From Gemmatimonadota bacterium (lineage in GTDB: Bacteria > Gemmatimonadota > Gemmatimonadetes > Gemmatimonadales > GWC2-71-9): DNA of 48,564 bases. This document shows positions 22,044 through 46,446 of the stretch, one piece after another (position 1 is the stretch's first letter; every line of letters starts with the position of its first letter). The position numbers and the translations under genes are program-made. The stretch is from the NCBI GenBank assembly GCA_016209985.1, contig JACQVB010000232.1, forward strand, positions 1-48,564, given 5' to 3'. A model generated the notes under the pieces. That model saw nothing but the letters and a program-made list of their open reading frames with translations, made no database searches and was not told where the DNA came from.

Positions 22044-23168
22044 ATGAAGAACTACGTCACTTGCACGCTCGCGGTCGTCGCCCTGGGTGGGTCACTGACG
22101 CAGCAGGCCACCGCGCAAGACAGTTTTGACAACACCGGATTCGGTACCAAATCGGCCGAATTCCTGCTGCTGGGCGCCGGAGCACGCGGAGCCGCGCTGG
22201 GCGGGTCGTTCGCGGCCATCGCCAACGACGCCAGTGCGCTTTACTGGAATCCTGCCGGTCTGGCGCTCATGCCCCGCGCCGAAGCGCTGATTTCCACCTA
22301 CCGCTACGTCGCCGACACCCGCTACAGCTGGGCGGGTCTCGCGTTTCCCCTGAGCGGTGGCGAGCGCGCCATCGGGTTCCAGGGCGGCACCTTCGGCTTC
22401 TCCGACCAGCCGGTCTACACGGTCGAGAATCCCGAAGGTGACGGCACCACCTACAGCGTGGCCGAGAGCTTCCTCGGCCTCACCTATGCCCAGCAGTTCT
22501 CCGACCGGTTCTCAGCCGGAATCACGGGCAAGTTCATTTCGGACAAGTTGGGCAAGACCGCCGGCACCGCCATCGCGGTGGACTTCGGCACCAACTTCCA
22601 CGCCTCCATCGGGCCACGACCGATCCGGGCGTCGTTCGTGATCCAGAATCTTGGATCGACCCTGGAGCACAGCGGATCGGCGCTGGAAACGGCCGTAGAG
22701 CGGGAGCCGCCACTGGACCAGTCCAACATTCCGCAGCAACCGCAGAACGCCCGTCTGACCACCAAAGAGTGGAACCTTCCCATCACGTTTAGAGTGGGGC
22801 TGGCCTTTGACGTGATGAATTCAGCCTCGAGTCGCTTTACCTTGCTGTCGGAGTTCACCCAGCCGGATAACTCCAACGCCGCCGCCAACGGGGCGGTGGA
22901 ATGGTCCCTGATGAACGTGGCCAACAGTCATGTGAGCTTTAATGTTCGCGGCGGCTACACCTACCAGCCGGATAACAACCTTACCCCCGACGAGACGGTC
23001 GTCGGATTCTCCAGCACGCTGTCGTCCAAGGAGAACCTGGACGGACTGGCGTTTGGCGGCGGCCTCGCGTACAACCGCGGAGGCTTCGGGCTGTCGCTGG
23101 ATTATGCCCGGCGGAATCTTGGAATCTTGGGAGGAACGGATTTCTTTAGTGCGACAATTTCGTGGTAA
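22044..23168 (+). CDS. PorV/PorQ-family outer-membrane beta-barrel protein
   Basis: This 374-aa FadL-like barrel has a signal peptide ending in TAQ, giving Q25 as the mature N-terminus. It shows the PorV/PorQ signature LLLGAGARGAALGGSFAAIANDASALYWNPAGLAL at residues 41-75 and a C-terminal strand ending in Trp (FFSATISW). In Bacteroidota, PorV shuttles cargo bearing a C-terminal sorting domain from the type IX translocon to attachment. Here it lies 16 nt after a gene encoding a protein with such a C-terminus, which supports a cargo-receptor role. A purely structural barrel is the alternative. GGGAGA precedes the ATG. Confidence 0.88.
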   Translation: MKNYVTCTLAVVALGGSLTQQATAQDSFDNTGFGTKSAEFLLLGAGARGAALGGSFAAIANDASALYWNPAGLALMPRAEALISTYRYVADTRYSWAGLAFPLSGGERAIGFQGGTFGFSDQPVYTVENPEGDGTTYSVAESFLGLTYAQQFSDRFSAGITGKFISDKLGKTAGTAIAVDFGTNFHASIGPRPIRASFVIQNLGSTLEHSGSALETAVEREPPLDQSNIPQQPQNARLTTKEWNLPITFRVGLAFDVMNSASSRFTLLSEFTQPDNSNAAANGAVEWSLMNVANSHVSFNVRGGYTYQPDNNLTPDETVVGFSSTLSSKENLDGLAFGGGLAYNRGGFGLSLDYARRNLGILGGTDFFSATISW

Positions 23169-37794: not shown

Positions 37795-38880
37795 CTAGGT
37801 CGGCGCCCTCTTCAGCAGCCAGAGTCCCACCCCTCCGAACAGCATATTGGGCATCCACGCGGCGAGCGTTGGAGGGAGCAGGCCGCCGGAGCCGACCGCG
37901 CGCGAGAGTTGGATCAGGGTCAGGAAGAATATGGTGGTCGCCAGGCTGACCGCGACACCGTAAGCGGCGCCGGCGCGCGGCCCGGTGATGGCCAGCGGTG
38001 CCGCAAAAATGGCGATGATCAGGCAGGTCACCGGGATCGCAATCTTGAGAGCACGGTCCACCGTCAGCTTCCGCGCTTCACCGCCCGAGCGTTCCAGCGC
38101 GTCGATGTAGCGGCCCAGCTCGGCGTACCCCATTTCTTCCGGCGCCTTGGGCTCGGCGAGCAAGGCCTGCGGTTTCTCCACCAGGCTTCGGTGGTACATC
38201 GAGTCGAACGCGAACGCGAGCTCGCTGGCGTCGCCGCTCGCGATCCGGAGGCGTCCATCGCCTACCGTCCAGCGGGAGAGCGAATCGAGGTATCTGGCGA
38301 AAAACGCTTGAATGACGAGCGTGGGATACTGCGGGCCGCTGCCCTCCCGCTCGAGGACCAGGTCGCGCATGGTCCGCTCGTTAATGTCCAGCGAGCGGAT
38401 CATGTACACCCATCCGCGATCCGCCCGGAACACGAAGTTGTAGCGGGTATTCACGGTTCGGAACTGTTTTTCGCCCAATAGCTCCAGTTGCCGCCGCGTG
38501 GCCGGCGGGGCCAGTTCCCCGACACCCAGCGCGGCGCCCGCGACCAGGACCCCCGCCAGAAAGACCGGCATCACGATCCGGTAGAAGCTCCGGCCGGTGG
38601 CCTTGGCGGCGGTCAGCTCCGAATACCGGCCCATGGCGCCCACGCTGAACACGGTGGCAAAGAGCACGGCGGCCGGCAGGACCATGAACACCTTTTCCGG
38701 CAGGCTGAAGATGTAGCTCGTCGCGATGGCTTTGGGCGCGAGCCCGCGCGCGAGGTACTCGTCCAGCTTGTCGGTCAGCTCGATGGCGATGACGACGAGA
38801 GGAAACCCGAGGGTCGTGATGAGAAACACCTTGCTCCACTCGCGAAGCAGGTAGCGGTCGAGAATCCCCAAGACTCGCAT
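37795..38880 (-). CDS. lptG: LPS export permease subunit LptG
   Basis: This 361-aa inner-membrane protein of the YjgP/YjgQ family is, with LptF, the transmembrane part of the LptB2FG transporter that extracts lipopolysaccharide from the inner membrane. The start is the ATG at 38880 (MRVLGILDRYLLREW), overlapping the lptF stop by one nucleotide (TGATG). Three N-terminal helices, a periplasmic beta-jellyroll (about 135-260) and three C-terminal helices are visible, and the GRYSELTAAKATGRSFYRI stretch is the coupling-helix region. LptF and LptG are similar; I assign G because it is second. Confidence 0.9.
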   Translation of the reverse strand: MRVLGILDRYLLREWSKVFLITTLGFPLVVIAIELTDKLDEYLARGLAPKAIATSYIFSLPEKVFMVLPAAVLFATVFSVGAMGRYSELTAAKATGRSFYRIVMPVFLAGVLVAGAALGVGELAPPATRRQLELLGEKQFRTVNTRYNFVFRADRGWVYMIRSLDINERTMRDLVLEREGSGPQYPTLVIQAFFARYLDSLSRWTVGDGRLRIASGDASELAFAFDSMYHRSLVEKPQALLAEPKAPEEMGYAELGRYIDALERSGGEARKLTVDRALKIAIPVTCLIIAIFAAPLAITGPRAGAAYGVAVSLATTIFFLTLIQLSRAVGSGGLLPPTLAAWMPNMLFGGVGLWLLKRAPT

Positions 38881-40319
38881 CAGGCCCGTCGCGTGCCCTG
38901 CTGGCGGATCTGCCAGAGCCACCCAAGACCCACCAGCGAGAAGACGATGTCGGGCCCCCACATGGCCCAGAACGGAGGAATGATCGACCGGTTGCCGAGC
39001 GCCTCTCCCGCGATCAGTCCCATGTAGTAGATGGTGAAGACCACCATGCTGAGGCCGACCACGAGCCCGACCCCCCCCCGCGGAAACCGCAGCGCGGCGG
39101 GAACCCCGATGAGCACGAACACGATGCATGCCGCCGCGATCGCCTGCTTCTTGTACGACTCCACGAGATAGTTGGCTTCCCGCACCTTTGCTCCGCCCGC
39201 CCGCATGCGCAGGCCCTGCACCTCTCCCCATCGCGGCGCCGGCATGGTGCCGGTCACGAACACCTGTTTCGCGGGCTGGTTGAAGTGCTGGATGATCTCT
39301 GGCGTGCTGTCGCGGCGCCCGCCTTGTTGCGCGTTGAGGTCCGCCGGAACCAGGAAGCCCCCGAACCGGCCGAGCCAGCGGCAGTACAGCGGGGGCCTGG
39401 ACTCCGGCAGGGCGGTATCCGCGACCACAGGTCCCAGGCCCACCAGCGCACGGAGGTCGCTGGTTTGGAGTGCCGCGGCGCGACGGTCACTCTGGATGCG
39501 GTCGCGATGTGCCGCGGTGATCACCGTGTCCATCTCGCACACGCTCATTTCGCGGTCGCCCTTGAACGTGTCGGTTTCGCTCCGGTCCAGGGCGTTGGTC
39601 ACGCCGACCACCCGGATCAGGTCGCGACGGAAGTGCATCTGCTGGAATGTCTTGGGATCATACCGGTTGAACTCGTGCATCACCCCGTCGAACAAAGTCA
39701 GGTTCAGGTCCTGTTGGTTGGGACTAACCGCCATGAGTCCGCTGTCGGCGTAGACGATGCGGCCGTGTTCCTGATCGCTCATGTCGTAGATGGTGACGTC
39801 GCGCAGGCCGAAGGTTGCCTGATCGATCCGGCCGGCGCGGAGAAAGAAGCGGGAGCGCTGGACTTCGTTCACCACCTGCTCCTTCAGCGCGAACGTCGGC
39901 TTCTTGCGGGCGATGTCCTGGAGCAGCGAGCGCAGCCGGTGGTTGGACCGCGGTAACACGTGATCGCTGAAGAGAAAGGACACGACAGCGACCCCCGCTG
40001 AAGCCACCAGCAACGGCTGCAACAGCTGAGCGAGAGAGACGCCGTTGGCTTTGAGGGCGGTGAGCTCGTTGTCGGTCGAAAGACGGGTGAAAGCGTAGAG
40101 GACCGCGACCAGCACGGCCATGGGAAGCGTCATCGCAACGATGAAAGGAACCGAAAGCGCGAAGACCTCGACGATCACGCTCCAGGGCAGTCCCTTGCCG
40201 ACCAGATCACCGAAACGCTTGGCGATCTGATTGAGCAACATGATGCCGGTCGTCGCGGAAAGGGCGAAGACGAACGGGATCGCGTGCTGCTGGAGGACGT
40301 ACCTACTTACTATCTTCAT
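38880..40319 (-). CDS. lptF: LPS export permease subunit LptF
   Basis: This 479-aa YjgP/YjgQ-family inner-membrane protein pairs with LptG. The start is the ATG at 40319 (MKIVSRYVLQQHAIPFVFAL); the longer open frame runs into the divergent sprA gene. The conserved AFTRLSTDNELTALKANGVSL segment is the region that contacts the ATPase LptB. The periplasmic jellyroll is about 100 residues longer than in LptG, and three helices close the protein. lptB and lptA/C/D are not in the window. No ribosome-binding site precedes the ATG, and a palindromic TATAAC box ends only 13 nt upstream. Confidence 0.9.
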   Translation of the reverse strand: MKIVSRYVLQQHAIPFVFALSATTGIMLLNQIAKRFGDLVGKGLPWSVIVEVFALSVPFIVAMTLPMAVLVAVLYAFTRLSTDNELTALKANGVSLAQLLQPLLVASAGVAVVSFLFSDHVLPRSNHRLRSLLQDIARKKPTFALKEQVVNEVQRSRFFLRAGRIDQATFGLRDVTIYDMSDQEHGRIVYADSGLMAVSPNQQDLNLTLFDGVMHEFNRYDPKTFQQMHFRRDLIRVVGVTNALDRSETDTFKGDREMSVCEMDTVITAAHRDRIQSDRRAAALQTSDLRALVGLGPVVADTALPESRPPLYCRWLGRFGGFLVPADLNAQQGGRRDSTPEIIQHFNQPAKQVFVTGTMPAPRWGEVQGLRMRAGGAKVREANYLVESYKKQAIAAACIVFVLIGVPAALRFPRGGVGLVVGLSMVVFTIYYMGLIAGEALGNRSIIPPFWAMWGPDIVFSLVGLGWLWQIRQQGTRRA

Positions 40320-40331
40320 GCCAAGCCAGAA

Positions 40332-40339
40332 GTTATAAC
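40332..40339. promoter_or_regulatory. Shared palindromic -10 box of the divergent lptF and sprA genes
   Basis: Only 25 nt separate the two start codons, and in them lies the perfect palindrome GTTATAAC, which gives TATAAC on both strands. On the minus strand it forms an extended -10, TGTTATAAC. Transcripts would begin within a few nucleotides of each start codon, so both may be leaderless or nearly so. No good -35 box is seen on either side. Confidence 0.45.
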
Positions 40340-40344
40340 ACACA

Positions 40345-43300
40345 TTGCGTTTACGCTCCCTCTTCCGCTCCGCCCTCGTGGCCGCTGCCGCGCTGTTCGC
40401 GCGGACTCTTGCGGCCCAGGCGCCCGCGGATTCCCTCCCCCGTCCGCTCCAGCGGTTCCCGGGTGACACCATCGTTGTTCGTCCGGTGCCGGAGGTGGAA
40501 CCCGGTGGGCTCTACGGCTTGCGCGTCCCGCCCGCATTGGTTGCTCTCCGGTGGGCCCGGGGTATCGAGCGGTCTGTTGCCGCGGCGCGCTCCCGTCGTC
40601 GTCGTGACCGGGTCCTGGCCCTCTCGCGAGCGGCTGTCCTGCCGGACACCCTGGCGGCCGCGGAGCCGGCACCGGAAGGCCCGCCGGCGCGGGAGGCGCC
40701 GTCCACCTTCGAGGCGCTGGGCCGCTATGCCGATGTCGGTCTCGAGCTGCGATCGCGGCTCGAGCTCAAGATGGACCGCCTGAAGAACGAGCACTGCACG
40801 GCTTTCGACATTTCCAGCCTGACACCGGGATGCCGCTCCACGTTCCCCACGCCTGCCATCGGCCAGCAATTCTCGGTGCGGGCGGGTGGCATCGTCAGCC
40901 AGCGGGTCCACGTCAACGTGGACTATGACACCGAGCGCGAATTCAACGCCAACAACAACATCAACGTGTTTTACCAGGGACTCGAAGACGAGATCCTGCG
41001 GCGGGTCGACATCGGAAACGTCACCTTCGAGGCGCCCCGTTCCCGGTTCATCACGGCCAGCATTCCGGCGAACTCCTTCGGCATCCAGGCGCTCGGCCAG
41101 GTGGGGCCGCTCGAGTTCAGGACCATCTTCGCGCAGCAACGAGGGTCTTCGCTCCGCACGCGGGTGTTCACCATGGGCGATCAGGCGACCCAGCCGATCG
41201 ACCGCGAGAACCGCGATCTCGACTTCGAAGCCGGCCGATTTTTTTTCGTCGTCAACCCGCGGGACCTGCCCGGCTATCCGGCGGTCGACATCCTGCGGCT
41301 CGCGCCGGACCAGTTGCCCGCGGCCGACCGCCTGGCCGCCGTCCGGATCTACCGGCTCCGCGCGCAGTCCGGACAATCCGGCTCCAACGCGAACCTGGGA
41401 GGGATCGATGCCGTCGCCATCCGGCGCGACAGCCCCCAACGGGTAGGGCCGTTCTCCTGGGAGCGGCTGGTCGAAGGCCGGGACTACTACCTCGATCCCT
41501 CGGGAGTGTGGTTCGCGCTGGTGACCAGGGTCAGCACGGAAGATTTCCTCGCGGTTTCCTACGTCACGGTCTCGGGTGACACCGTGGGGACCTTTCCCGC
41601 GATCAACACTGGAGCCGATACCCTGGAGCTCATCTATGAGCCCCGCCGGGGAACCGAAGTGCCGACCTTCGCCTACGAAATGCGCAATGTGTATCGCATC
41701 GGCGGCGGGAATCTCAGCCGGTCATCCATCGAGCTGGCGATCGTTCTCAATGAGTCCGAGCGGCCGATCGACGGCGAGGGGACGTATCTCTCGCGGCTGG
41801 GGCTGGCCCGCTCGAACGATGCGTCGTCTCTGGACGAGTTCAACCGCGTTTTCCCGCGCGAACGGGACCCCAACTCCGGTGCGCCGCTCAAGGACCTCTT
41901 CGTGGTCTTCCCGCACCTCGTACCCTTCGCCGATTCCGCCCGGCTGACTCCCGAAGAGCGCAACGACTCGCTCTATCGCACCCCGATCCACCTGCTCTCG
42001 AGTCAGGGCCCGCCTCCCAAGTTCCGGTTACGCGTCCACTATGAGGCCACCGGGGCGGGCGACCGCTCCACCCTCAGTCTCGGCGCGCTGCAGGTCCGTG
42101 AAGGAAGCGAGAGGCTCTATCTCGGTACCCGGGAGCTGGTACGGGGCAGGGACTATCAGGTGGCATATGATGTCGGCGTCGTCACCTTCCTGAATCCCGA
42201 CTCGCTGTTCCAGGGCACCGTGCAGATCCGGGCGCAGTTCGAGGAGAATCAGCAGTTCGACGAAGCGCCCAAGAACAACTTCGGCCTCTCGGGCACTTAC
42301 CATCTCGGCTCGGTCGGCACGGTGAGCGCGATCGGGCTGTATCAGTCCGAGCAAACCGCCTTCACCCGGCCGCCGCTCGGCTTCGAGCCGCGCTCGGGGT
42401 TGATCGGGGGCTTAAGCACCGACCTCGGGGTTCGCGGCTCCGGCCTCACCCGGGCCCTCGACGCGCTGCCCGGACTCCGGACCGCGGTGCCGTCGAGCTT
42501 CACCCTGCGCGGCGAGATCGATGTGTCGCGTCCCAATCCCAACCAGCGCGGGCAAGCATACATCGATGAATTCGAGGGTCTTGCCGCCGTACCCCTCCGC
42601 CTGGTCCAAAACACCTTCCAGCTCGGCAGCCGGCCCTCATCGGGCCGGGGGCTTTCGCCCCTCTTCCTCGGGGCCGACGGCAACCTGTCGCCCTTCGATG
42701 CCGCGACCATGATCTGGCAGAACGCCATTCAGGCGGGCTCGGTCGCGCTGGAGTTCGAGCCCCAGCAGATCGACTCCAGCATCGTGATTGCCGGGGCGAG
42801 CCGCCAGGTCGAGACCGTACTCTGGCTCACGATGAAGCACGATACCATCGGGGGAGCTCCCGACCCGGTCACGGGGCGGGCCCGGTGGATCCGGCCGCAC
42901 ACGCCGGGGCCCCGGTGGCGCAGCATCACCCAATCGCTCGACCGCTCCGGTCTGGGCGTCGACCTCTCCCGGACCGAATTCCTCGAATTCTGGGTGCTGG
43001 AGGACGCCGATCGCACCGCGCAACAGCAGCAAGCGACGCTGCTCTTTGATTTCGGGACGGTGTTCGAGGACGCCACCTCTCCGGCTCCGGACACGTTCCG
43101 GGTCGTCGGCAAGGACACCGTGTTCTCCGGTTTGCAGTTTACCGGAGCCGGGCGGTTGGATACGGAAAAGGACTCGCTGACGAATGTGTTCAATGCCGCG
43201 ATCAGCGACGTCGGCGTGCACGGCGATCTGATCGATTCGATCGTCGATGCCGGGTCCGGCACGGTGGTGCACGACGTATCCACCTGCCAACTCCCCTCGG

Positions 43301-46300
43301 GCGGCGTCCCCGCGTTTCCGCTGGGCGACCTTGCCGCGGACTGCACGCGGCGAAACGGTTTTGCCGACTCGGAGGACCTGGACGGTGACAACCGGCTGGA
43401 CAGCAACGTCGGCATCGCCCGGGAAGATCTCCTCCGCTACGTCTTTCCCCTGGGAGATGAGCGCTATCACGTGAAGGATGGCGGCAAGATCCCCGATCAG
43501 GGCGGTCGCTTCCTCACCTGGCGTCTCTATCGGATACCGTTCCGCACCGACACGCTCCAGGTCGGGACTCCCAACGTCCATCAGGTGAGGGCGCTGCGCA
43601 TCACGCTGGCCGCTCCCAACCGGGGGAGTGACGAGAGGGAATTCTTCTTTGCTCTGGCGCGGGTTCGTCTGGTGGGGGCCCCCTGGGTCAAACGCGCGGG
43701 AACGCCGCTCGCGGGGATCGCCGGCAGCCGGGCCGAGCTCCACGGCGAGGTCGTCGCGTCCATCATCTCGACCGAGAACAAGGATCTGGGCTACACCTCG
43801 CCGCCCGGCGTCACCAACCAGACCCAACAGGTGGGCGGCGCGCTGCAGTTCGGCTCCCAGCAGATCAACGAGCAGTCCCTCCGCCTCCTGGCGCGCGATC
43901 TCCGCACCGGCGAGCGGGCCGAGGCCTTCGTGCGCTTCGCGGACGAAGCGGACAAGAACTTCCTCAAGTACCGGAACCTGAGGGTGTGGGCGCGCGGCCG
44001 CGGGCCCGGCTGGGAAGACGGCGATCTCGAGTTCTACATCAAGGTGGGAAAGGACGAGAACAACTTCTACTTCTATCACCTCCCGGCCCGAACCGACCGC
44101 TGGGAACCGGAGGTGGTAATCGATCTCGACCGGTGGAAGGCGCTGCGCGCGACGGTACAATCCGCCTGGCTGCGCGGTGATCCTCCTTCGGGCGCCGCCC
44201 AATGCGGTGGCGATTCCACCGCATATGTCGCCTGTGACGGCGCCTATCTGGTGCAGGTCCGGGACCCGGGAGTCTCGCCGCCGAACCTGGCGCGGGTCTC
44301 GGAAGTGGCCGTCGGGATGTTGCGCCGCGCGCAATCGGTGGCGATCGACCAGGCCGAGCTGTGGGTGGATGACATCCGCCTGAGCGGCGTGGTTGGCGAT
44401 GCCGGAGTCGCCGCGGCCATCGATGCCCGGCTTGCCGCCGCCGACTTCGCCGAGCTTAACCTCTCCCTCTCCAACAAAGACGCAAAGTTCCGGCAATTGG
44501 GAGAAGAGCCGAATTATGTGGGGAACGGCGCCGCGTCATTCGCTTCGACGTTCCAGCTCGCCAAACTGGCTCCCGAACGTTGGGGGTTGAGCGTGCCGCT
44601 CACCATCCAGCACCTCCGCACCCGGGACGACCCCTTCTATGTGAGCCGCAGCGACATTCGAACCGACGCGATCGTGGGCTTGCGGCGCCCTCGCGGCAGT
44701 GCGACCACCTATCAGGTCGCCGTGCGGCGCGCGAAACGGGGAGCGACGCTCTGGGAGCGCATGCTGCTGGATCCGGTGTCGGTCGCCGCGATGCGGCGGG
44801 ACGCCGATGCCACCGCCGAGTTGTCGACAGCCCGAACGGTCAACCGGCAGGCGTCGGTAGGGTATCTCAATCCGGCGGGCGCGCGAACGCTGGCGCTACC
44901 CGGGTTTCTGTCCCGAATGGTCGACGCGCTCCCGCGCGTAGTGAGGGAGAGTGAATTCGGCCGCTCGCTGCGCACGGCGCGACTGCGATGGAATCCCTAC
45001 CAGCTCCGGTACTCATCGCTGCTCACCGACAGCCGGATCGACCGGTCGACCTTCCGCGTGCCCGTAACTCTCCCCGGCGATTCGGCGATCGTTCCGCTTT
45101 CCAGCCTGGTTCACACCTGGCGAAATGACGCCGGTATCGACCTGCGACCGTTCAATACCCTGGCGTTCCGCGTGGACTATTCCCGCATCCAGGACCTGCA
45201 GCACTATGGGGACTCCACCAGCCTGGGCCGGGTGCTGGACGAGGAGCGCACCTCGTTCCTCGGACGTGACGTGGGATTCGAGCGGACCCGGTTACTCAAC
45301 ACCGTGGTCAACATTTCGCCGGTGATCGGCAGCTGGTTGCGCCCACGGGCGAGCTTCACCAGCTCCTTCGCGTTCAACCGGGACCCCAGTGGTCGCACGC
45401 CCATCCGGCTGGGGCAGGATTCGAGCGGCGCATTCGCCGCACCGCACTCGTTGGGGAATTCCCGGCGGCGGGACTACGGCGCCACGGTCGACCTCTCCGC
45501 CCTCATCCGCGGTCTGGTGGGAGATTCGTCCTCGCTGTGGCGGATCTCCCGCCTGCTGCAACCGCTGGACCTGTCCACCGCGCGCGAATATCGCTCCAGC
45601 TTCGACCGCGCACCCTTCTTCGCCGACACCCGCTACCAGCTGGCGCTCGGCGGCGTGGAGTCGTTCCGGAGTCGGAACGGAATCCTGGCGACCGGTGCTG
45701 CCGATGTCCGGAACCGCAGCGCGAGCGGCGGTCTCGATCTCCCGCTCGGCTTGAGGCTCCGCGGCCTCTATCAGGAGGTCCAATCGGTGAATTGGGTGCA
45801 TCGTGGCGACGGCCAGGGTGAGCTGCGGCAGTCCAGCCGGGAATGGCCCTCGGGGAGTCTGGCCTGGCTCTACAGTCCCCGATGGGCGCTGGGCAAGGTC
45901 ATCAGTACGGTGGCTTCCCAGACCCGCTACCGGCGCTCGGTCTCCACCACGGTCCAACCGGCGCTGGGATCGGCGACTGCCCGTACCGAAAACCGCTCGA
46001 CCTCCCTCAATCCGTCGCTCACGCTCACCTGGGCGGGCGGAGTGCTGACCACGGCACAACTAGGCCGGACGCGAATCGAAGAGGTCACCTCGGGAAACAT
46101 CACCCGAACCAACCGCAAAGATATTGGTGGCAATTTGAGCTTTGCCTTCCGGGCACCCGCCGCGCTGGTCCGGCTGCGCAATCCGCTGCGGAGCAGCCTC
46201 GCGGTCACCGTATCGGATATTCTGGTCTGTCTGGTACGCGCCAACAGCCAGGAATGTGTGCCGGTCTCGGATAGTCGCCGCCGCCAGGCCGATTTCCGGC

Positions 46301-46446
46301 TCGATACCGGCTTTTCACCCTCGATCACCGGGGGGGCGTCCTTCGGTTATGTTTTGACCGAACAGCGGCACACCGCGACCAAGCTGTCGCAGGCGAATTT
46401 CACGGTCTTTGCCGAGATCAACTTCTCCGCGGGTCAGATGCGATGA
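40345..46446 (+). CDS. sprA: Cell-surface protein SprA (type IX secretion translocon)
   Basis: SprA (Sov) is the giant outer-membrane barrel through which type IX cargo passes in Bacteroidota. This 2033-aa homologue has the family's most conserved stretch near residues 190-250: EFNANNNINVFYQGLEDEIL, RRVDIGNVTF, IPANSFGIQA. It continues with repeated strand-rich blocks to a final NFTVFAEINFSAGQMR. An in-frame stop at 40336 means the TTG at 40345 is the first possible start; it gives a signal peptide ending LAA and Q25 as the mature N-terminus. It is somewhat shorter than the Flavobacterium and Porphyromonas proteins (about 2400-2500 aa). The stop overlaps the glutaminyl-cyclase gene (ATGA). 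Confidence 0.95.
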   Translation: MRLRSLFRSALVAAAALFARTLAAQAPADSLPRPLQRFPGDTIVVRPVPEVEPGGLYGLRVPPALVALRWARGIERSVAAARSRRRRDRVLALSRAAVLPDTLAAAEPAPEGPPAREAPSTFEALGRYADVGLELRSRLELKMDRLKNEHCTAFDISSLTPGCRSTFPTPAIGQQFSVRAGGIVSQRVHVNVDYDTEREFNANNNINVFYQGLEDEILRRVDIGNVTFEAPRSRFITASIPANSFGIQALGQVGPLEFRTIFAQQRGSSLRTRVFTMGDQATQPIDRENRDLDFEAGRFFFVVNPRDLPGYPAVDILRLAPDQLPAADRLAAVRIYRLRAQSGQSGSNANLGGIDAVAIRRDSPQRVGPFSWERLVEGRDYYLDPSGVWFALVTRVSTEDFLAVSYVTVSGDTVGTFPAINTGADTLELIYEPRRGTEVPTFAYEMRNVYRIGGGNLSRSSIELAIVLNESERPIDGEGTYLSRLGLARSNDASSLDEFNRVFPRERDPNSGAPLKDLFVVFPHLVPFADSARLTPEERNDSLYRTPIHLLSSQGPPPKFRLRVHYEATGAGDRSTLSLGALQVREGSERLYLGTRELVRGRDYQVAYDVGVVTFLNPDSLFQGTVQIRAQFEENQQFDEAPKNNFGLSGTYHLGSVGTVSAIGLYQSEQTAFTRPPLGFEPRSGLIGGLSTDLGVRGSGLTRALDALPGLRTAVPSSFTLRGEIDVSRPNPNQRGQAYIDEFEGLAAVPLRLVQNTFQLGSRPSSGRGLSPLFLGADGNLSPFDAATMIWQNAIQAGSVALEFEPQQIDSSIVIAGASRQVETVLWLTMKHDTIGGAPDPVTGRARWIRPHTPGPRWRSITQSLDRSGLGVDLSRTEFLEFWVLEDADRTAQQQQATLLFDFGTVFEDATSPAPDTFRVVGKDTVFSGLQFTGAGRLDTEKDSLTNVFNAAISDVGVHGDLIDSIVDAGSGTVVHDVSTCQLPSGGVPAFPLGDLAADCTRRNGFADSEDLDGDNRLDSNVGIAREDLLRYVFPLGDERYHVKDGGKIPDQGGRFLTWRLYRIPFRTDTLQVGTPNVHQVRALRITLAAPNRGSDEREFFFALARVRLVGAPWVKRAGTPLAGIAGSRAELHGEVVASIISTENKDLGYTSPPGVTNQTQQVGGALQFGSQQINEQSLRLLARDLRTGERAEAFVRFADEADKNFLKYRNLRVWARGRGPGWEDGDLEFYIKVGKDENNFYFYHLPARTDRWEPEVVIDLDRWKALRATVQSAWLRGDPPSGAAQCGGDSTAYVACDGAYLVQVRDPGVSPPNLARVSEVAVGMLRRAQSVAIDQAELWVDDIRLSGVVGDAGVAAAIDARLAAADFAELNLSLSNKDAKFRQLGEEPNYVGNGAASFASTFQLAKLAPERWGLSVPLTIQHLRTRDDPFYVSRSDIRTDAIVGLRRPRGSATTYQVAVRRAKRGATLWERMLLDPVSVAAMRRDADATAELSTARTVNRQASVGYLNPAGARTLALPGFLSRMVDALPRVVRESEFGRSLRTARLRWNPYQLRYSSLLTDSRIDRSTFRVPVTLPGDSAIVPLSSLVHTWRNDAGIDLRPFNTLAFRVDYSRIQDLQHYGDSTSLGRVLDEERTSFLGRDVGFERTRLLNTVVNISPVIGSWLRPRASFTSSFAFNRDPSGRTPIRLGQDSSGAFAAPHSLGNSRRRDYGATVDLSALIRGLVGDSSSLWRISRLLQPLDLSTAREYRSSFDRAPFFADTRYQLALGGVESFRSRNGILATGAADVRNRSASGGLDLPLGLRLRGLYQEVQSVNWVHRGDGQGELRQSSREWPSGSLAWLYSPRWALGKVISTVASQTRYRRSVSTTVQPALGSATARTENRSTSLNPSLTLTWAGGVLTTAQLGRTRIEEVTSGNITRTNRKDIGGNLSFAFRAPAALVRLRNPLRSSLAVTVSDILVCLVRANSQECVPVSDSRRRQADFRLDTGFSPSITGGASFGYVLTEQRHTATKLSQANFTVFAEINFSAGQMR

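Follow-up and report, generated by a model that had tools for sequence, protein, structure and literature searches.

How two divergent genes can both be supplied with promoters when their start codons lie only 25 nt apart is the question raised by the lptF-sprA locus of a Gemmatimonadota-like genome, found in a stretch of 48,564 nucleotides that is called the window here. An earlier note on this DNA placed a single palindrome at the centre of the problem, as the -10 box of both genes. The comparisons below point to a different arrangement, in which two promoters would overlap and face each other. The features needed at the outset are as follows.

38880-40319, minus strand: lptF, LPS export permease (Pfam LptF_LptG), first gene of lptF-lptG
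40345-46446, plus strand: sprA, type IX outer-membrane translocon homologue with a TTG start (TIGR04189, signal peptide)
40320-40344: gap of 25 nt separating the lptF and sprA start codons, as read in the sequence
40332-40339: palindrome GTTATAAC, with TATAAC on both strands; the earlier note's shared -10 box

The lptF-sprA pair and its conservation

The identities of both genes are given by family models. The lptF product scores 263.9 bits with Pfam LptF_LptG, far over the cut-off of 27.9, and this match carries its assignment to the LptF family; NCBIfam TIGR04407 is the best model for LptF, yet it remains under its cut-off (187 vs 230 bits). The sprA product is recognized by Pfam SprA_N (49.8 bits, cut-off 27) and, as an SprA/Sov translocon protein, by the SprA model TIGR04189 (526 bits, cut-off 200). 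The lptF ATG reads as CAT at 40317-40319 on the minus strand and the sprA TTG occupies 40345-40347 on the plus strand, in agreement with the 25-nt separation of the start codons described before. Likewise, a TAA in the sprA frame at 40336-40338 does bar an earlier sprA start, and the statement that neither gene has a ribosome-binding site holds, there being no Shine-Dalgarno site at lptF or sprA. The TTG start is backed by a signal peptide of the ordinary type, MRLRSLFRSALVAAAALFARTLAAQA, directly behind it; the gene caller had set the sprA start at 40378, within the signal peptide, rather than at the accepted 40345, and had set the lptF start 8 codons early. As called (34 nt), the pair is the closest of 29 divergent pairs in the own-genome sample, which comprises the window and 20 further stretches, 328,693 bases in all; the next closest pair is 109 nt apart.

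Head-to-head pairing is widespread among the relatives. Of the 61 genomes searched, 59 have an LptF match and 47 an SprA match, and sprA lies head to head upstream of lptF in 46 of the 59 lptF loci examined, that is, in 46 of the 47 SprA genomes. In the remaining SprA genome (G013) the contig that carries lptF ends about 80 bases from the gene, and the SprA match is on another contig. Because the two genes are head to head in 46/59 lptF loci, their adjacency is of old standing in this order. A scan of named genomes returned three loci, 56-59% identical, all from Gemmatimonadota or Gemmatimonadetes MAGs, to which the genome is thus close.

An SprA match is absent from 14 of the 61 genomes, several of which are >95% complete; in these 14 the neighbour of lptF was viewed within 1.5 kb. 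The window also encodes a PorV-family protein (22146-23162; NF033709, 147.7 bits, over cut-off), so that a span of 25 kb holds genes for no fewer than two type IX secretion components, sprA included. The PorV family search gave two matches over cut-off. The GldL model, used as a test for the type IX motor/ring, matched nowhere, controls included, and is hence uninformative.

Predicted near-leaderless genes and the -10 box of the genus

Genes of this genome normally have no Shine-Dalgarno motif: in the own-genome sample one precedes 15 of 171 called genes, and the figure for a control stretch is 3 of 171, a count that covers three of four neighbour classes. Some divergent genes carry a -10-like hexamer close to the start. 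Within the own genome, 11 of 48 divergent genes have a TANNNT whose end lies 5-9 nt ahead of the called start, with 13 matches over the other 40 gap positions (Poisson 2.4e-6, computed with 14 background matches in place of 13). G001, the one other species on which the same-genus comparison rests, has the box at this gap in 7 of 43 divergent genes, or 16 matches if any candidate ATG/GTG start is admitted, and in G060, from a sister family, a peak at gap 6-8 comprises 8 matches among 49 divergent genes when called starts are used and 16 when any candidate is admitted. The peak is absent from G021, where 1 of 54 divergent genes has a box at gap 5-9; own-genome non-divergent genes with called starts have the box in only 2 of 67 cases, and a scan of all start-like codons made independently of gene calls gave no clear leaderless peak.

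The peak depends on the start codon. In a set of 263 genes, boxes at gap 5-9 number 31 before ATG where 6.3 would be expected from the other gaps, and a weak peak precedes GTG (11 vs 8.3), whereas TTG starts have none (3 vs 4.8). The last figure argues against the earlier proposal that sprA is leaderless; the only box 5-9 nt before the sprA start is TATAAC, at gap 5, and it stands before a TTG rather than an ATG or GTG.

The composition of the box emerges from positions that the search had left free. Position 5 is T in 26 of the 42 gap 5-9 boxes drawn from two genomes, own and G001, compared with 19 of 59 controls (Fisher 0.003). With the last position also left free, T is found there in 18/29 and C in 6/29, the controls having T in 25/87 and C in 24/87 (Fisher 0.0015), and TTG occurs 17 nt upstream of the box in 5 of the 42. 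G060 has T at position 5 in 12 of 15 boxes, its own lptF and sprA boxes included, vs 2 of 11 in the control. Given the enrichment of T at position 5 and at the last position, and the TTG 17 nt upstream, the -10 box of the genus is TANNTT, 5-9 nt before ATG, with a weak sigma-70-like -35. If the model holds, near-leaderless genes would be usual in the genus and not peculiar to the lptF-sprA locus. An SSU family search, made for the anti-Shine-Dalgarno tail, gave no match in the own genome, G001, G021 or G019, and a literature search found no paper joining Gemmatimonas, leaderless and transcription start sites.

Candidate promoters in and around the gap

The genus -10 model, which was built from typed counts with the first two positions assumed to be 0.9, was applied to the window and picks out a minus-strand hexamer in the gap and a plus-strand hexamer inside lptF.

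40330-40335, minus strand: TAACTT, candidate -10 box of lptF, 10 nt before the ATG; 12 of 97,118 window hexamers score as well
40311-40316, plus strand: TATCTT, putative -10 box of sprA, inside lptF codons 2-3
40308-40313, plus strand: TACTAT, a weaker overlapping box; 123 of 97,118 hexamers score as well
40322-40324: predicted position at which the two transcripts begin, nearly the same base pair for both, 7 nt past each box
40302-40313, minus strand: four rare codons, lptF codons 3-6 (ATA GTA AGT AGG); joint synonymous frequency 6.2e-6

Scores at least as high as that of TAACTT recur at 1 per 8,093 nt, and those at least as high as that of TATCTT, 28 nt before the sprA TTG, at 1 per 32,373 nt (3 of 97,118 window hexamers). 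TAACTT lies at gap 10, just past the usual 5-9, and precedes an ATG start with no Shine-Dalgarno site. The closest relatives have a minus-strand box at a similar place, TAGCTT at gap 9 in G001 and TAAGTT at gap 10-11 in G036, G006, G007 and G017, and TANNNT stands 5-10 nt before lptF in 18 of 58 loci (the 59 minus L018, whose contig ends too soon), for which 1,000 shuffles gave a mean of 2.6 and a maximum of 8. On the plus strand, G001 has TATCCT at the site equivalent to TATCTT, and its facing boxes are 12 nt apart. A good -35 is lacking for all five candidate boxes (3/6 matches at best), and a generic sigma-70 scan of 39,800-40,900 returned 0 promoters and 0 terminators.

These data are best accommodated, at a probability of about 0.5, by two overlapping promoters of the housekeeping type that drive lptF and sprA, their -10 boxes facing each other 13 nt apart. 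TAACTT would give rise to a near-leaderless lptF mRNA beginning ~4 nt before the ATG, and TATCTT to a sprA mRNA with a leader of ~22 nt. The opposite-strand transcripts would thus begin near 40323, with each promoter in the footprint and early transcribed region of the other, and because of this predicted overlap of footprints a single polymerase at a time could occupy the segment. The lptF half is the firmer and is probably correct; for the sprA half the chances are about equal either way. The earlier suggestion of divergent promoters in a very short gap is supported in a modified form, with overlapping promoters and a near-leaderless lptF. Its further claim, that transcription proceeds in one direction at a time, is probably right; the tie it drew between LPS export and translocon expression does not follow automatically, since the five E. 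coli bidirectional promoters tested did not compete, being too weak at the basal level (PMC12825309).

The first codons of lptF have a bearing on the putative sprA box. Read on the lptF strand, TATCTT becomes AAG ATA, which are lptF codons 2-3, and codons 3-6 are all rare, with usages of 3.7 (ATA), 5.9 (GTA), 6.6 (AGT) and 4.3% (AGG). Only 8 of 82,101 four-codon windows are equally extreme, as are the first codons of 1 of 243 called genes, a set in which lptF, with its start called early, is not in its true frame start and is not that one. Of the rare codons, G001 shares only ATA with the window. Such a run would fit an additional role of these bases on the plus strand, or it may serve only to prevent the 5' end of lptF from folding; in 196 of 200 shuffles folding was no weaker than in the real 5' end. 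A further consideration weighs against facing promoters: the plus-strand box needs just the codons AAG ATA, and it can arise independently of a sprA start, given that ATA is found at codon 3, with no adjoining sprA start, in 13 of the 36 genomes of the sister family f2 that lie outside genera g39, g43 and g52.

That family provides the most compact layout. An LptF match was obtained in 113 of 118 genomes drawn from f2, and the gap was inspected in 53 (43, then 10 more). In all 17 genomes drawn from genera g39, g43 and g52, TATCTT in lptF codons 2-3 is accompanied by a minus-strand box, 6-7 nt before the lptF GTG, that reads TATATT in 12, TAAATT in 4 and TAGATT in 1; these genera were picked after the motif had been seen, and 17 genomes in three genera amount to few independent events. 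In 16 of the 17, a GTG in the sprA frame lies 3 nt from the lptF GTG and 6 nt after TATCTT, and each -10 box sits inside the other gene. A signal peptide directly follows this sprA GTG in several genomes (L149, L052, L155, L181, L182), and g39 and g52 mostly also have a second GTG 15 nt further back. The exception, G123, keeps both boxes and has a stop in the sprA frame, with no in-frame sprA GTG there. The sister-family sprA was considered as proof of the plus-strand TATCTT box; G123 and the 13 of the other 36 f2 genomes with ATA only, outside this layout, weaken that use.

Three rivals must be set against the facing promoters. In the one closest to the earlier note, GTTATAAC would be a shared symmetric -10, from which TATAAC would produce a leaderless sprA mRNA and a short-leader lptF mRNA with starts ~21 bp apart. 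As described there, TATAAC is present on both strands at 40332-40339, in a perfect 8-nt palindrome centred in the gap, and 5' ends 6-7 nt past the boxes would come near the start codons, though with an lptF leader of ~6 nt that is not strictly leaderless. The palindrome is single in the 328,693 sampled bases (0.9 expected from composition; TTATAA also occurs once, vs 8.4 expected), its minus-strand TATAAC is preceded by an extended TG, and bidirectional promoters are common in prokaryotes (PMC12825309, PMC10268837). The same overlap geometry recurs in 6 of 58 loci as ATTATATT, 13 nt from lptF. Against this, position -7 of TATAAC is C on either strand, a departure from the -11A and -7T on both strands that define a shared -10 in PMC10268837, and -11 and -7 do not fall on each other reciprocally, as they do in the 18-bp form that is usual there. 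The palindrome is missing from the 21-nt lptF-sprA gap of G001, the only same-genus relative compared, leaderless TTG starts are not enriched, and 511 of 97,118 window hexamers, or 1 per 190 nt, match the score of TATAAC in the genus model. GTTATAAC is thus weakly supported and probably not the -10 box of both genes, and the shared-box explanation is unlikely. That the palindrome is instead an operator for a regulator, and no promoter element, is far less probable still: it is perfect and single in the sample, but it is lacking in same-genus G001 and has no second copy in the 328,693 bases.

The remaining rival concedes the near-leaderless lptF transcript from TAACTT and dispenses with the interlocked pair, sprA being served by a promoter deeper in lptF or by one that an alternative sigma factor uses. 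TATCTT has no clear -35, the sites of sprA promoters differ between genera, and the f2 genomes that have ATA at lptF codon 3 away from any adjoining sprA start fit this explanation as well. Nevertheless, TATCTT ranks in the top three among the hexamers of the window and has the right orientation. A separate sprA promoter is judged improbable, if slightly less so than a shared palindromic box.

Other loci show different layouts. L018, outside the 58-locus count as its contig ends early, also carries the ATTATATT layout, in which -10 boxes on both strands overlap by four bases; these loci have the geometry of the earlier note, with better boxes than those of the window. In seven loci (L012, L013, L017, L018, L025, L027, L041) the order is TTGTAG, 17 nt, TATAAT, 13 nt and the lptF start, with -35 variants among them; together these elements would form a near-consensus lptF promoter, the -10 of which also reads TATATT on the opposite strand. 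These seven are a cleaner candidate than the window for a symmetric bidirectional promoter. A TATATT-like sprA box lies 42-46 nt before the start in 15 of 36 loci, for a leader near 38 nt, and most sister genera of the own family use a box at this distance; the table of sprA starts began with 46 loci, of which 10 were dropped for want of a start passing the signal-peptide rule, and some accepted starts among its 36 rows look wrong (e.g. L007, L010). In 13 of the 36 loci (L004, L005, L006, L008, L011, L015, L016, L019, L020, L021, L040, L042, L054) the last 50 nt ahead of the sprA start contain TACCCC, often as TTACCCCGC, which sits between the TATATT-like box and the sprA start; it may be an element of the leader or, as the leader is rich in C, a product of chance.

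Relation to known promoters and secretion systems

A wider form of the facing-promoter proposal may be entertained tentatively, with odds short of even for its parts taken jointly: that lptF and sprA of this order evolved interlocked, face-to-face promoters, a gene's -10 box lying in the first codons of the neighbour and both mRNAs starting at nearly the same place; that g39, g43 and g52 represent the extreme, with starts 3 nt apart, both genes leaderless and each -10 box in the other coding sequence; and that a single DNA segment works as a switch, with LPS export on one side and the type IX translocon on the other. If this were true, promoters would need no space of their own, and each of two envelope genes that look essential would hold the other's promoter in its first codons, which would force codon choice and make transcription mutually exclusive. 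Near-leaderless TANNTT transcription would then be a habit in the phylum, for which the literature search found no start-site map.

The nearest parallels to the locus are the bidirectional promoters of Warman, Grainger and colleagues, where opposite transcripts likewise issue from a short piece of DNA and polymerases exclude each other sterically. By definition their opposite starts lie 7-25 bp apart, mostly 18 bp, and one -10 is shared by symmetry (PMC12825309, PMC10268837). By arithmetic, the palindrome would set the two starts ~21 bp apart and the favoured boxes ~0; the favoured boxes, unlike those promoters, do not overlap and face each other 13 nt apart, with predicted starts at about the same base pair. 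The lptF-sprA arrangement would thus belong to a known kind but differ in its geometry.

Leaderless or near-leaderless promoters are known from Deinococcus, Mycobacterium and Bacteroidota. The window shares with them a box a few nt before the start and the lack of a Shine-Dalgarno site, the box here being TANNTT; it differs in that the lptF gap is 10, not 5-9, and in that the Gemmatimonadota case is predicted from sequence. According to PMC5397173, promoters of this type have the -10 a few nt before the start codon and no Shine-Dalgarno site.

With the SprA/Sov proteins of type IX secretion the locus has in common a TIGR04189 match far over the cut-off and a PorV-family gene in the same window; it is set apart by its Gemmatimonadota-like genome and by its position head to head with lptF. 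Type IX secretion may be present in Gemmatimonadetes, according to a review (PMC11285876). Since Porphyromonas anchors type A cargo to LPS and so links LPS with type IX secretion (PMC9143113), a joint control point for the two systems would make sense.
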